NCBI GenBank assembly: GCA_025150425.1
Contig: CP102281.1
Location: forward strand, 2,480,001-2,544,000
DNA: 64,000 nucleotides
Reading direction: 5' to 3'
Source of the DNA: [Eubacterium] siraeum
GTDB taxonomy: Bacteria > Bacillota > Clostridia > Oscillospirales > Ruminococcaceae
The notes under the pieces are model-generated. The model was not told the origin of the DNA. It was given only the letters and a program-made list of their open reading frames with translations, and searched no databases. A program made the translations under genes and the position numbers. This document shows positions 3,278 through 53,643 of this stretch, one piece after another. Positions within the stretch are counted from its first letter, which is position 1. Every line of letters starts with the position of its first letter.

Positions 3278-3284
3278 CTAAACT

Positions 3285-3360
3285 TGGTACACCTTCAGGG
3301 ACTCGAACCCAGGACCCACTGATTAAGAGTCAGTTGCTCTACCAACTGAGCTAAAGGTGC
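3285..3360 (-). tRNA. tRNA-Lys (CTT), second copy
   Basis: A 76-nt cloverleaf. The anticodon arm ACTGA-CTCTTAA-TCAGT gives anticodon CTT, the T-arm is GGGTTCGAGTCC, and CCA is encoded at 3285-3287. The sequence is identical to the tRNA at 3707-3782. It is the last gene of the rrn transcript. Confidence 0.96.
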
Positions 3361-3375
3361 ATATTTGATAAAGTG

Positions 3376-3701: not shown

Positions 3702-3706
3702 AAGTT

Positions 3707-3782
3707 TGGTACACCTTCAGGGACTCGAACCCAGGACCCACTGATTAAGAGTCAGTTGCTCTACCAACTGAGCTAAAGGTGC
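3707..3782 (-). tRNA. tRNA-Lys (CTT), first copy
   Basis: A 76-nt cloverleaf with anticodon CTT and encoded CCA, identical to the copy at 3285-3360. It begins 6 bp after the 5S rRNA end. Confidence 0.96.
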
Positions 3783-3788
3783 ATATAT

Positions 3789-3904
3789 GTCGGCATCTAT
3801 CTATCTTCCCGGGCAGTCACCCGCCAAGTATTTTCGACGTAAATGAGCTTAACTACTGTGTTCGGAATGGGAACAGGTGGAACCTCATCACAATCAACAC
3901 CGAC
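3789..3904 (-). rRNA. rrf: 5S ribosomal RNA
   Basis: A 116-nt 5S gene. It contains the conserved segment around CCATTCCGAACACAG and GTAGTTAAG, and its ends GTCGG...CCGAC pair as helix I. It lies about 60 bp after the 23S gene in the usual 16S-23S-5S order. Confidence 0.96.
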
Positions 3905-17720: not shown

Positions 17721-17919
17721 TATAAATAACCGTCCTTTTCATCGGATTTTTTACTTTCCTGTGTCATCTGTATCTGCCGCCTGTATCTTTGGTGCATACA
17801 ACGCTTCATCTGCACATACCGACACATTTTATATTGTATCACAAATTGTCCGTGTTCGCAATAGCAAACGTCATTTTTTCTCAAAACTTACCTTTCCGTA
17901 TATCATTCAACCGCCCCGC

Positions 17920-18309
17920 TTCACCCTACGGCAACATCGACCACAGCCGCTCCGCTTCACCCTACGGCAACATCGACCACAGCCACTCCGCTTCACCCTA
18001 CGGCAACATCGACCACAGCCGCTCCGCCTCACCCTACGGCAACATCGACCACAGACGCTCCGCCTCACCCTACGGCAACATCGACCACAGACGCTCCGCT
18101 TCACCCTACGGCAACATCGACCACAGACGCTCCGCCTCACCCTACGGCAACATCGACCACAGACGCTCCGCTTCACCCTACGGCAACATCGACCACAGCC
18201 GCCTCGCTTTCACCCTACGGCAACATCGACCACAACCGCTCCGCTTCACCCTACGGCAACATCGACCACAACCGCTCCGCTTCACCCCACGGCAACATTG
18301 ACCACAGCC
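17920..18309. repeat. Minisatellite: 11 tandem copies of a 36-bp unit
   Basis: The unit starts TTCACCCTACGGCAACATCG and continues ACCACAGCCGCTCCGC. Units 1-7, 9 and 10 are exactly 36 bp, unit 8 is 37 bp, and unit 11 is partial (18281-18309). Substitutions are clustered at the first base (T/C) and at bases 28-30 (CCG, CCA, ACG, AACCG types). The period is a multiple of three, so all frames stay open, but no start or ribosome site precedes it. It fills the gap between the divergent purB and tRNA-Pro genes; the rest of 17730-18379 shows nothing else recognisable. Confidence 0.93.
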
Positions 18310-19674: not shown

Positions 19675-19737
19675 TATATTGTTGTAATTTGTCAACACTT
19701 TGCATTGAAAATTGTATAAGTTGTTGCTTGTAAGCCC

Positions 19738-20240
19738 CCATGCTTAAACCCTCTGGGCGTTCATTTTATAAGGCATCCGTGCCTTACCCGCACCGTGCGA
19801 GTTCGCCCCCAGCACCAAAAAAAGCAGGGCTATGCCTGTTTGTGTTAGCGAAAGTGTAGCGGGGTTTGTCAAAATGCGGTCGTTTGGGTCGGCGCGTCCT
19901 TGCGCCGACTCTGTGCGACCGCTATCGTGCATCCTTGCACGTCGTGCTTGCTCTGTTGGTTTCGCATCGTGCGAAACTTTGGGCAAGCACTATCACGCAT
20001 CCTTGCGTTTGCGGTCGTTTGGGTCGGTGCGTCCTTGCGCCGACTCTGTGCGACCGCTATCGTGCATCCTTTGCACGTTTATGAACGCTCTGTTGGTTTC
20101 GCATCGTGCCTCGTCAGCCGTTTGGGTTGCCACATCGTGTGGCAACTAAGTGCGGCTGCCTTTAAGCATCCATGCTTAAAACTTTGGGCGTTCATTTTAT
20201 AAGGCATCCGTGCCTTACCCGCAAGTTGCGGGTTCTCCCA
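19738..20240. repeat. Nested-hairpin repeat element, copy A
   Basis: About 500 bp made of consecutive hairpins. Simple ones have a TCCN loop, such as AAGGCA-TCCG-TGCCTT, GTGCA-TCCT-TGCAC and AAGCA-TCCA-TGCTT. Compound ones enclose an inner hairpin within an outer stem: outer GCGGTCG/CGACCGC (19876-19882 with 19916-19922), GTGCTTGC/GCAAGCAC (19944-19951 with 19983-19990), CAGCCG/CGGCTG (20115-20120 with 20153-20158). Inner stems such as GTTTCGCA/TGCGAAAC and TTGCCACA/TGTGGCAA close on a TCG loop. The ends share a ~53-bp direct repeat. Open frames across it are by-products of the repeats. Confidence 0.85.
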
Positions 20241-20253
20241 CCCACCAACACAT

Positions 20254-29944: not shown

Positions 29945-29993
29945 TTATCCGCCGTCACGGAATTAACCGTTGACGGCGGATTGCTTTTTTGTT
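29945..29993 (+). terminator. Intrinsic terminator of the IseA-like gene (duplicate 1)
   Basis: ATCCGCCGTCA pairs with TGACGGCGGAT, followed by TTGCTTTTTT. The same ~48-bp stretch recurs at 30288-30335 with two differences, on the far side of element B. Confidence 0.9.
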
Positions 29994-30287
29994 GAAAAAA
30001 CTCTATCGTTATTAAAAATGGGGTTTGGGGCGTAGCCCCAAGCAGGGTGAGGGCGGCAGCCCCACACTCAGCCCCGGCACGGACGCCGGGCGTGTATGCC
30101 CAAAGGCTCTGCACGATGCAGAGCCAACCAAGCATACACAGCCTTTCACATGGAAATGGGTTTTCGGCAAGGATGCCGAAATAAGGACACACCAAGCTTT
30201 GCACGAAGCAAAGCCATCAGAGTGTCCTAAAGGGGATAGGGATTGCGGACAAGCACCTTTTTGAAAAAACACTTTTTCTACAAGCTG
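29994..30287 (-). repeat. Nested-hairpin repeat element, copy B
   Basis: A ~294-bp element, inverted relative to copy C and alignable with it over most of its length. Hairpins include TTGGGGC/GCCCCAA (30025-30041), GGCTCTGCA/TGCAGAGCC (30105-30125) inside outer stem GTGTATGC/GCATACAC, TTTCGGCA/TGCCGAAA (30162-30181), and GCTTTGC/GCAAAGC inside outer stem AGGACAC/GTGTCCT (30184-30190 with 30222-30228). It lies exactly between two copies of the same terminator. Confidence 0.88.
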
Positions 30288-30335
30288 TTATCCGCCGTCA
30301 CGGAATTAACCGTTAACGGCGGATTGCTTTTTGTT
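30288..30335 (+). terminator. Duplicate 2 of the IseA-like gene terminator
   Basis: It repeats 29945-29993. One base change converts TTGACGG to TTAACGG, and the T-tract is one base shorter. It faces the same way as duplicate 1 although no plus-strand gene lies between them. Confidence 0.88.
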
Positions 30336-49477: not shown

Positions 49478-49669
49478 GCCTTTTTCAAAAATTTAAAGAT
49501 AGAAATTACAATAAAAAATCTCCGCATTTTTGTGCATATTGACTAATCGGTTTTATGCTATTATTTCCGTTCCGCCTGCCTGTATTCGTTAATTTTTCTG
49601 CCGCTTATTTATAATGCTTTGGTGTGTAGCGCCGCAGAGCTTCCATCGGGTATATAAAACTGCAAAAAA

Positions 49670-49700
49670 TCTGAGGGCAGGTAACACTACCTGCCCTCAG
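49670..49700 (-). terminator. Terminator hairpin, distal duplicate beside element C
   Basis: CTGAGGGCAGG pairs with CCTGCCCTCAG. On the minus strand it is followed by ATTTTTTG, so this copy looks like the working terminator for the fn3 gene at 50119. Twenty-nine bases are repeated exactly at 50075-50103. Confidence 0.88.
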
Positions 49701-50074
49701 TTTGTAGAAAAAGTATGTTTTTGAAATTAACTTCTGATTTATTATCCCTATCCCCTTTAGGACACTCTGATGGCTTTGCCTCGTGCAAAGCTTGGTGTGT
49801 CCTTATTTCGGCATCCATGCCGAACTGCCCCCTTTCCCCCGTGAAAGGCTGTGTATGCTTGGTTGGCTTTGCATCGCGCAAAGCCCTTGTGCATACACGC
49901 CCGGCATCCGTGCCGGGGGTGAATACGGGGACTGGCGTCCCTGCGACCCGCCTTGGGGCTACGCCCAAAGCAAGGATGCTTTGGCTGCTTGCCAAAAGTT
50001 TTGCACGACGCAAAACCAGCAGAGCAAGCGACGCTAAACCCCCATTTTTGATAACGATAGAAGTTTATCGACAG
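49701..50074 (+). repeat. Nested-hairpin repeat element, copy C
   Basis: A ~374-bp element between two copies of one terminator hairpin. Modules are GCTTTGC/GCAAAGC inside outer stem AGGACAC/GTGTCCT (49759-49765 with 49797-49803), TTCGGCA-TCCA-TGCCGAA (49807-49824), GGCTTTGC/GCAAAGCC inside outer stem GTGTATGC/GCATACAC (49851-49858 with 49891-49898), CCCGGCA-TCCG-TGCCGGG (49900-49917), and more in a segment absent from copy B (49930-50035). The end CCCATTTTTGATAACGATAG matches copy B's end in inverted orientation. Confidence 0.88.
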
Positions 50075-50103
50075 TCTGAGGGCAGGTAACACTACCTGCC
50101 CTC
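50075..50103 (-). terminator. Terminator hairpin, gene-proximal duplicate beside element C
   Basis: It is an exact 29-bp repeat of 49670-49698. This copy is nearest the gene at 50119 but lacks a T-tract on its minus-strand side, so it is probably not a complete terminator. Confidence 0.8.
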
Positions 50104-50118
50104 GCTGTCACTTTGATT

Positions 50119-53100
50119 TTATTTCGCCGTTGTTGCCTTTGCGGAAATGTACTCGCTGAATCTGTTGCTTCCGTCAACCGTTTTGAATGACTTCATACGG
50201 AAGGAATACGTTGTTCCCTTTGCGAGCGGGGCGACAACCATTGTCGTTACGTTCTTATCTTTGATAACATTTATCTGCGTCCACTTTCCGCCCTTGTACT
50301 GTTCGATGACATATCCCGAGGCGATGGTGTTGCGGCTCCAGCTGAGCTTTACCGCCGTCTGCGACAACGCCGTTGCGCTGAACTTAGCCACGTTCGCAAT
50401 TCTGGTCGTTCCGGCCATCGAAACATAGCCGCCGTAGGTTGTCTTTGTGCCGTTTGTCTTATACGCTCTTATCCTGAACGAATATTTCGTATCCGGGTTA
50501 AGACCCTTGACAATGAACTTCAGCGTCGTGTTATTCTTTGTTACCGCTATCTGCGTCCACTTTCCGCCCTTGTACTGCTCTATCGCATATCCCGTAACGT
50601 TAGCGTTACGTTCCCATTCAAGAGTTATCCATGTAGCCGTGGTCGAGGTAACTCTTGCATTCTTCACTGCCGCAGGAGGAGTTTCCGCCTTAACTGTGGT
50701 ATAGCCGCTGTAGTTTGTCTTGCCGTCGGCATTCTTGTATGTCTTTATGCGGAATGAATAAGGTGTTGCGTCCGCCAGCCCCTTTACAGTAAAGGTAAGC
50801 GTTGTGTTGTTCTTTGTTACCGCTATCTGCGTCCACTTTCCGCCCTTGTACTGTTCGATTATGTAGCCTGTAACCTTATCGTTCCTGTTCCAGTCCAGCT
50901 TTACAGCTGTAGGAGATATTGCGGTGCCGACAAATTTGTCGGTATTTGTAAGCTGCGTTTTCGCCGCAAGCCTTACATAGTCGCTGTATGCCGTACCCGA
51001 CGATAAAGTCTTATATCCCCTCATCCTGAACGTGTACGTTGTATCGGCGGCAAGTCTGCTTACATTGTACGAAACCGTGGAGCTGTTATTTATCTTTGCA
51101 ATCTGCGTCCACTTTCCGCCCTTGTACTGCTCTATCTCATAACCGCTCGCATTTGCGTTCTTATCCCACTTCAACGAAACACTCGATGAAGTCGCAGATT
51201 CCGCCGCAAAGCCTGTAGGAGTTGCAACATCATTTTCGATCTTGATTTCTGTATAACCGAGAATATAGTAGTATTTGTATTTTGAATTGTAACTGTAATC
51301 CTGTCTGACCTGAGTTCCGTTCAGATAGAATTTTGCTTTTTTGAGATTATACTCATAGCAGTCGGCATTGATGTATATATAGCACCAGTACGTCTTGCCC
51401 TTCTCAAATACAGTCGGTGTTTTCCACTCTTCATCGTCATACCAGTCAATACTTATAAGGCTCATATGCTCAGGAAGATTATGTGAGATGAAACTCTTTG
51501 CCGGAGTTCCTCCTGCCTTCGGAGGTGTTATCTGTACATATATATCCTTATCATACTCTTCAAACGGCACCCTCAGACTGTTAATCACTACCTTTCCGTC
51601 ATTGGAAACCGTGAACAGTTCCTTGTCTTCGGATGTCAGCCAGAATCCTTCTCTGTAAGTATCAAGCCTGCATCGGAATATATAACCGGGGGAAAGCGCA
51701 TATCCCGACTTAGGCGTTACCTTGAATTCGACCACATAACAGTTATCTACTATAAGCTCGTCATCGTCGTAAACCTCTTCGTTATATTCCCATGTGTTTA
51801 AAAGCGGCGTGACAAGAGTTACCGAATATTTATCAGGTTCCGACGAAGTAAGCTGCAGATCGTTTACCTGTCTGTAAGGCAGGAAGTTGCTGATTTCGAC
51901 CCCGACCGTCCTGATTCCTTCGTCGCAAACAAGAACGCTCTTAAATGCAATCTCGTTAAGACCGATGTAAATATGGTCTGCCGCTTGCCATTCATTTGCG
52001 GGATCCTCAAACCTGCGCATCTTTACTGTGCCTGTTGTATACGCTGCAACGTATCCGCTTTTCAGCTTTACTTTTACAAATATGTTGTATTTGAAGCCTT
52101 TGCACAGCTGAATATCGTTTACTATATTGTTTCCGTAAACATCACGGATATTGTTTATCGTCAGACTGTATTTTTCGGGTTCACCCGACGCAACGCTGAC
52201 GTCGCTTAACTTCGAGCCACCGTGAAAACCTGACACGACCGCCTTGATTTCCGTTACGGCTTCAAAGTCATAATCAATTATTATTATCTCGTTGATTCTC
52301 AGCACATTGCCGTAATTTATAACAGCCTTATACAGCATTGTGCATTTTTCCGTAACTTTTGGCGGCGTATACGACAGATCGTTTATAGCTTCGGGAATTC
52401 CTGTGAACGAGCCGAAATTCTTGGATACATACCAATCTACCGTTTTTATCGGATCGCCCGTGCCGTACGGATTAGGAGCCTTACTCAGCAGGTCGATCTT
52501 ACCTACGCTGTTGCTGTTGACGGTAAAACGGGTGCGTTTGGTATGGCTCAACACATAATTATTTCTGTCGGTTTTCAGCCTGCATATCTCGTCTGCACCC
52601 CTTGCAGCCATAGCCTTCTTTTCGTCAATGCCGGCCTGCGGTGCGGTAAGCAGAGTCGTGTACTCTACCTTTTCTGCAGAATTTGTGATTGTACCTGCTT
52701 TAGAAGTAAGTACCGCCTTATCAGCAGGATAATATACATTTATATCATTCGGGCTAAGCGGCATGGTTCCGCCCAGGAGCGTTATGTTGTAATACTTTTT
52801 CTGTAACGCCTCGTCACTTGTAACACGGACAAAATACGGATCGGAAATTATCGTTCCCGTTTTATCGGTCACTCTGCCCTTGCTCTTGTTTGTGATGGTT
52901 CCGCCCGTCATAACCAGCGATGCGTAATAATCACAGCCGTCTATCGAGGAGAGCGCTATACTTGAGGTAGTTACTATAGTACCTCCGTTTATCAGAGCAG
53001 TAGAATTAAGCGTTCTTTGTTTGCCGGCAAAACCGTTATCCAGCTTTATCGGAGTACCGATCTGTGCATCAAAATAACCGTCGTTGATTACAAGATCCGA

Positions 53101-53643
53101 TGCACTCAGCTTGATCATTTCACAATACATCGCATTGGTACCCGTGTAGCAGAATGTACCTCCGTTTATAACGATCGTACTTCTGTTCTCAGCCAAAAAC
53201 AGATTCTGGGCTACATCCTTGGCATAGAAATACATCTTACCCGTTCCCACCGAATCCTCAATGGTCAGCTTACTGTATTGGACGCTCAACAGATGATCCT
53301 GCGAGTCAATACTGTTACCTGTCTTTTTAAGCGTATATCCGGCAAGGTCCAGCGTCTTGTCACTTTCTATAGGCGGACACAATCTCGTCAGATAGTTAGG
53401 TTTATATTCCTCAGGGTCGCAGTCAATATCTGCGCCAAGCCTTATCTTAGACTCCTCACTGCCGTTGTATGCCAATCTCAGCTGCCGGTAATTGCGGACG
53501 ATAAGGTATCCGTCACTTGAATACTCTGTGCTTTCACCGTCGGTGCCTGCGGCACTGATAGGTATGATTGTCAGCGGCAGTGCGGTTATCATAATAGCAA
53601 GTGCCGCAAACAAAGCCGTAATGCGTTTAAATTTTATTTTCAT
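50119..53643 (-). CDS. Large secreted protein with four C-terminal fibronectin type III domains
   Basis: 1,174 residues. A signal peptide (cleavage near ISAAG, residue ~32) is followed by a region to about residue 330 with parallel beta-helix-like repeats (RSTIVINGGTFCY, ALINGGTIVTTSS, SLVMTGGTITNKS), then about 450 residues of beta-rich modules of unclear family, and four fn3 domains from ~815 to the end, each with the pattern SGYxIEQYKGGKWTQIA...TYSFRMRxYK. No sortase motif or membrane anchor is seen. It is probably a surface or matrix adhesin; ligand unknown. Its fn3 sequences resemble those of the next gene. Confidence 0.85.
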   Translation of the reverse strand: MKIKFKRITALFAALAIMITALPLTIIPISAAGTDGESTEYSSDGYLIVRNYRQLRLAYNGSEESKIRLGADIDCDPEEYKPNYLTRLCPPIESDKTLDLAGYTLKKTGNSIDSQDHLLSVQYSKLTIEDSVGTGKMYFYAKDVAQNLFLAENRSTIVINGGTFCYTGTNAMYCEMIKLSASDLVINDGYFDAQIGTPIKLDNGFAGKQRTLNSTALINGGTIVTTSSIALSSIDGCDYYASLVMTGGTITNKSKGRVTDKTGTIISDPYFVRVTSDEALQKKYYNITLLGGTMPLSPNDINVYYPADKAVLTSKAGTITNSAEKVEYTTLLTAPQAGIDEKKAMAARGADEICRLKTDRNNYVLSHTKRTRFTVNSNSVGKIDLLSKAPNPYGTGDPIKTVDWYVSKNFGSFTGIPEAINDLSYTPPKVTEKCTMLYKAVINYGNVLRINEIIIIDYDFEAVTEIKAVVSGFHGGSKLSDVSVASGEPEKYSLTINNIRDVYGNNIVNDIQLCKGFKYNIFVKVKLKSGYVAAYTTGTVKMRRFEDPANEWQAADHIYIGLNEIAFKSVLVCDEGIRTVGVEISNFLPYRQVNDLQLTSSEPDKYSVTLVTPLLNTWEYNEEVYDDDELIVDNCYVVEFKVTPKSGYALSPGYIFRCRLDTYREGFWLTSEDKELFTVSNDGKVVINSLRVPFEEYDKDIYVQITPPKAGGTPAKSFISHNLPEHMSLISIDWYDDEEWKTPTVFEKGKTYWCYIYINADCYEYNLKKAKFYLNGTQVRQDYSYNSKYKYYYILGYTEIKIENDVATPTGFAAESATSSSVSLKWDKNANASGYEIEQYKGGKWTQIAKINNSSTVSYNVSRLAADTTYTFRMRGYKTLSSGTAYSDYVRLAAKTQLTNTDKFVGTAISPTAVKLDWNRNDKVTGYIIEQYKGGKWTQIAVTKNNTTLTFTVKGLADATPYSFRIKTYKNADGKTNYSGYTTVKAETPPAAVKNARVTSTTATWITLEWERNANVTGYAIEQYKGGKWTQIAVTKNNTTLKFIVKGLNPDTKYSFRIRAYKTNGTKTTYGGYVSMAGTTRIANVAKFSATALSQTAVKLSWSRNTIASGYVIEQYKGGKWTQINVIKDKNVTTMVVAPLAKGTTYSFRMKSFKTVDGSNRFSEYISAKATTAK

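Follow-up and report, generated by a model that had tools for sequence, protein, structure and literature searches.

Background

In textbook DDE transposition, the transposase joins the 3′ ends of the transposon to two points of the target and gap repair then produces a target duplication, the length of which is nearly fixed and set by the enzyme. Hairpins are used in single-stranded form by IS200/IS605-type transposases and integron integrases, while group IIC introns (a ribozyme plus a reverse transcriptase) insert at terminator hairpins and have neither a target duplication nor terminal inverted repeats. In the IS1182 family, IS1272 and TnSha1 of staphylococci target terminator hairpins, and the hairpin is lost with no duplication (PMC5678879, PMC4923244). 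The pathway proposed for IS1272 is an attack at the 3′ feet that deletes the hairpin; a "pathway b", attack at the 5′ feet with duplication of the whole stem-loop, was drawn as possible, without examples (PMC5678879). Ordinary 4-bp direct repeats flank the IS1182-type elements MITEPye1 and ISPye18 of Paracoccus yeei (PMC11578231), and are known for other IS1182 members as well. The IS1202 long-duplication group makes target duplications of 16-28 bp, and its authors did not find the target (PMC10132070).

Element C and its divided terminator

The window (64,000 nucleotides of the Eubacterium siraeum genome) contains a short element, C, immediately downstream of a gene on the minus strand:

49698..50078, minus strand: element C, a 381-bp non-coding MITE with its left end at 50078 and its right end at 49698 (ends and family mapping)
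50060..50078, minus strand: left terminal repeat of C, CAGACTGTCGATAAACTTC (pattern match, genome 2530060-2530078)
49698..49714, minus strand: right terminal repeat of C, ACTTTTTCTACAAACTG (pattern match with 0 mismatches, genome 2529698-2529714)
50079..50102, minus strand: gene-proximal hairpin copy, severed from the T-tract (sequence identity, flank alignment)
49674..49697, minus strand: distal hairpin copy (sequence identity, flank alignment)
49664..49669, minus strand: T-tract of the original terminator, adjoining the distal hairpin only (sequence)
50119..53643, minus strand: gene with the split terminator, encoding a 1174-aa protein (ORF list)

The first-pass annotation had described 29 identical bases forming a perfect hairpin on both flanks of C, with a T-tract on the distal copy only, and had proposed that the element parted a gene from its terminator while leaving a hairpin copy beside the gene. 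The identity and the fold are real: TCTGAGGGCAGGTAACACTACCTGCCCTC (29 bp) is present in identical copies at 49670-49698 and 50075-50103, each folding into a 4-nt loop on a perfect stem of 11 bp (-12.9 kcal/mol as DNA, z -7.6), and six T on the minus strand (plus strand 49664-49669) adjoin the 49670 copy alone. As a measure of the target-site duplication, however, 29 bp had to be refined: the certain part is the 24-bp stem-loop (49674-49697 and 50079-50102), with ends that are ambiguous by 2-3 bp, and the extra matching bases belong to the element, because its CAG/CTG ends chance to agree with the target. The parting of gene and terminator is borne out by the layout. The stop codon of the gene lies 16 bp from the nearer hairpin copy, which has no T-tract, and the complete terminator is now about 400 bp downstream, so that transcription is predicted to read through the T-less hairpin into element C. 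The encoded protein contains a series of modules resembling fibronectin type III.

The left and right terminal repeats of C are imperfect inverted repeats of each other and differ from the family consensus by one mismatch in all. The program-made ORF list of the window contains no convincing ORF in C. No empty site for C was found in the closest relatives, because they do not have the neighboring gene; the alignment of the closest, the same-genus genome G031, reaches only to 49567.

Element B and other repeats of the window

A second element of the same MITE family as C is inserted in the window in the opposite orientation:

29945..29981, plus strand: first hairpin copy of element B, with T-tract (sequence comparison)
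about 29990..30287, plus strand: element B, left boundary eroded (right end 30271-30287)
30288..30324, plus strand: second hairpin copy of element B, with T-tract (sequence comparison)

The duplicated hairpin flanking B has, unlike that of C, kept a T-tract on both copies. An empty site is present in G031, where the two genes are the same, the element is absent and there is a single related hairpin with a T-tract. At the left end of B, T-rich sequence has taken the place of the first bases, in a manner resembling conversion from the other copy. One simple insertion does not explain the two T-tracts together with the eroded left end.

Three other repeats were observed in the window: an array of short hairpin modules at 19725-20250, with GCATCCTTGC-like cores and varying arms, which resembles the interior of B and C and in which the family ends were not noticed; a tandem repeat array with a period of about 72 bp at 17908-18309; and near-identical 84-bp repeats at 3284-3367 and 3706-3789 in an apparent tRNA cluster.

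A family of elements flanked by duplicated hairpins

The ends of the family to which C belongs are CAGnCTGTCGAAAAACC...CTTTTTCTACAAnCTG. A DNA search of the 2.69-Mb genome found 64 places similar to the element, and the end patterns were matched with up to two mismatches by 83 right and 58 left ends (reversed control patterns, 6 and 0). When ends within 900 bp of each other with at most five end mismatches were paired and their flanks aligned, 67 pairs resulted, of which 43 are immediately flanked by a direct repeat, 19-36 bp long, that starts 0-4 bp from the element ends. The other 24 have no clear abutting repeat; most of them look weak or decayed, and some look like chance pairings of weak ends. 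No copy stood out as having an ordinary short duplication in this screen, which covered repeats above the 4-10 bp range.

Family members are about 150-835 bp long, and the long copies contain no conserved ORF. They are short, non-coding, bounded by terminal inverted repeats, flanked by duplications and present in many copies, as expected of MITEs. At 1336733 and 1336938, a single terminator carries two stacked elements and is left with three copies of the hairpin. A longer subgroup (about 510-835 bp; for example 190530-191130, 1398583-1399090, 2156624-2157132) has a non-coding core that includes a nearly invariant block, AACGCCACTAACCTGAGATATATGTACTAACC...GCGGACGTGTAGCGTTAAGCGTCCCTGCAT, about 90 bp in length. 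The core contains no long ORF, and no meaningful Rfam match was found in the five loci with longer members that were scanned; the block is possibly a structured RNA or a regulatory site.

Mapping of all copies and their flanks supports the proposal of the first-pass annotation that the terminator structure itself is the shared target, inasmuch as the duplicated hairpins, both at 43 of the 67 genome pairs and around the 40 autonomous relatives described below, are nearly all unrelated in sequence. In 42 of the 43 genome copies the direct repeat is the whole stem-loop (the hairpin covers at least 80% of the repeat); the exception, at 2317408, has a 19-bp repeat without a clear hairpin. Compared with length-matched segments drawn from the same DNA, 39 of the 43 repeats score above the 99th percentile as hairpins. 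Because 43 copies share the arrangement with mostly different hairpins, and these proportions are so high, the C-type arrangement is far beyond chance. The center of the repeat coincides with that of the hairpin (mean offset -0.02 nt, SD 0.6, 43 copies), the repeat length tracks the stem span (Spearman rho 0.67, p 1e-6), and the repeat typically ends about 2 bp beyond the outermost G-C pair. Gene ends are close by: 39 of the 43 hairpins have one no more than 150 bp away, on one side or on both (left-side median 18.5 bp). In 31 of 43 cases the right-hand copy is followed by a T-rich stretch in which at least 4 of 8 bases are T. The elements show no clear preference for one orientation with respect to genes, which lie on the left only in 11 cases, on the right only in 7 and on both sides in 21.

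An autonomous IS1182 partner in relatives

The family ends also occur in many genomes of the same genus and in other families of the order. In one genome of the same genus (G014; locus L255, 1461-1516), a 56-bp element consists of just the two ends back to back, a near-perfect palindrome beside a terminator-like hairpin. In a genome of the same order (G060), the ends enclose an insertion sequence of 1522 bp that lies between the two copies of a 35-bp hairpin repeat and carries a gene for a 484-aa IS1182-family transposase (NF033551, 385.9 bits against a cut-off of 270; Pfam DDE_Tnp_1, DDE_Tnp_1_6 and DUF772). Pseudoflavonifractor sp. An44 has an identical transposase (over 484 aa), and the ends of the An44-type element are CAGACTGTCGAAAAAC and GTTCTTCGACAGTCTG. 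By virtue of the ends shared with this autonomous partner, the C family can be classified as a MITE of the IS1182 family. IS1202, a candidate mobilizer on account of its long duplications, was discarded once the gene enclosed by these ends proved to be of IS1182 type.

A scan of bacterial genomes identified 80 relatives of the 484-aa transposase. The flanks were readable for 61 autonomous copies, of which 43 passed a first direct-repeat screen and 18 were left out. Among the 43, the 40 copies with clean CAG...CTG ends have hairpin repeats of 19-64 bp, the length of which again follows the stem span (Pearson 0.85) and the center of which is offset from that of the hairpin by 0.04 nt (SD 0.26; 39 of 40 within 1 nt). 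The longest repeat, of 64 bp (locus L289), is a single 64-bp hairpin. Eight of the 40 copies are in the complete genome of Chakrabartyella piscis, at eight hairpins. Farther afield, an IS1182 copy on a Rhizobium plasmid (36.6% identity) has a 25-bp hairpin as its flanking duplication, ACCTCCGGTGGCTCCCACCGGAGGT, beside CAGAC ends, and therefore the behavior may reach beyond Clostridia; two distant plasmid members of IS1182, ISCfr1 and a Sinorhizobium copy, have no hairpin flanking duplication.

No intact IS1182-type mobilizer was found in the E. siraeum genome, only a degenerate IS1182-like gene (C1:242979-243902) with no recognizable ends, perhaps the remnant of a former mobilizer. The mobilizer of C has therefore probably been lost or has decayed, which weakens the claim of present mobility and leaves the claim of origin. 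Another same-genus genome (G035) has a partial IS1182 copy with one matching end at a contig edge. The two rve (retroviral-integrase) transposase genes of the E. siraeum genome (one IS3-like, one a remnant) were also considered, and no matching ends were noticed.

Target choice and its alternatives

Element C is best explained, with a rough probability of 0.87, as a non-autonomous MITE moved by a subgroup of IS1182-family DDE transposases that picks intrinsic-terminator hairpins by their structure. The palindrome at the terminator would most likely, on geometric grounds, be extruded as a cruciform; the two 3′-OH ends of the transposon would attack the 5′ feet of the two opposed hairpins, one on either strand; and gap repair would then copy the entire hairpin on each side. 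Since the 5′ feet would lie side by side at the junction for any arm length, the whole hairpin would be duplicated, and the target hairpin, not a fixed spacing of the enzyme, would set the duplication length. The duplications observed do follow the hairpin in length and are centered on it.

The hairpin might instead fold in single-stranded DNA, either the lagging-strand template or a transcription bubble, and the second strand might be cut in the course of repair or replication. This route has the precedent of the IS200/IS605-type transposases and integron integrases, and terminators do lie in transcribed and replicated regions, but it is unlikely: a clean duplication requires attack on both strands, DDE enzymes normally work on duplex DNA, and the insertions have no clear orientation bias with respect to genes.

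Repeats that vary from 19 to 64 bp and yet remain centered on the dyad are hard to obtain on linear DNA. It is accordingly rather improbable that a transposase dimer binds a symmetric linear site and cuts B-form DNA with a wide stagger, terminators being hit simply as the commonest long palindromes. Such a dimer would equally give exact dyad centering; its fixed geometry, however, predicts a near-constant repeat length rather than one that follows the stem, and no sequence common to the targets is evident.

That the hairpin was replaced as by IS1272 and then restored, or that the terminator was copied later by recombination or gene conversion, is strongly disfavored. IS1272 and TnSha1, which belong to the same family, do target terminator hairpins and delete them (PMC5678879, PMC4923244), and the T-tracts on both hairpin copies of B give it a partly converted look. 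Against this, the stem-loop is found on both sides in 42 of the 43 genome copies and in the 40 autonomous cases. The repeats in the 43 and the 40 cases alike adjoin the element ends with nearly single-base precision, often as identical hairpins and including those of near-identical multi-copy insertion sequences; deletion followed by exact regain on both sides is not credible so often. A retroelement or group IIC intron homing to terminators, although such introns are known to insert beside terminator hairpins, is hardly conceivable given the terminal inverted repeats, the flanking duplications, the DDE transposase of the autonomous partner and the lack of a significant Rfam match in five loci with longer members.

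As for how widely cruciform-directed insertion applies, it seems somewhat probable that a broad IS1182 subgroup (in Clostridia, with one example from Alphaproteobacteria) reads DNA shape and attacks both cruciform feet, the target setting the duplication length. If so, this subgroup would account for the long, variable direct repeats in the IS1182 family.

Duplications of 19-64 bp that are centered on a hairpin within about a base make structure-directed target choice directly testable. They also represent a recurrent route to the loss of terminator T-tracts from bacterial genes and to the multiplication of terminators, and a warning that duplicated terminators around small repeats can be scars left by transposition. 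For laboratory strains, a transposase that inserts directly behind genes could serve as an insertion tool.

Comparison with known systems

Regular whole-hairpin duplication was not found reported in the openly searchable literature, which does not extend to ISfinder or subscription papers; ISfinder, presumably, may list long repeats for the IS1182 family. Of the described systems, group IIC introns share with the C family the position at terminator hairpins and differ from it in having no duplication and no terminal inverted repeats. The IS1202 group has similarly long target duplications, but its transposase is TnsB-like and its termini are 5′-TGT...ACA-3′, whereas the partner of the C family is IS1182-type with termini CAG...CTG. 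MITEPye1 is, like C, a short, non-coding, intergenic MITE of IS1182 type; the hairpin duplication of the C family is not reported for it or for ISPye18. IS1272 and TnSha1 have the same transposase family and the same kind of target, a hairpin that is often a terminator and has no fixed sequence, but IS1272 removes the stem-loop without a duplication and the C family duplicates the whole of it. Thus, the targeting of hairpins and terminators by the IS1182 family was known, and the regular duplication of the whole hairpin appears to be new, supplying examples of a pathway so far sketched for IS1272 only as possible.
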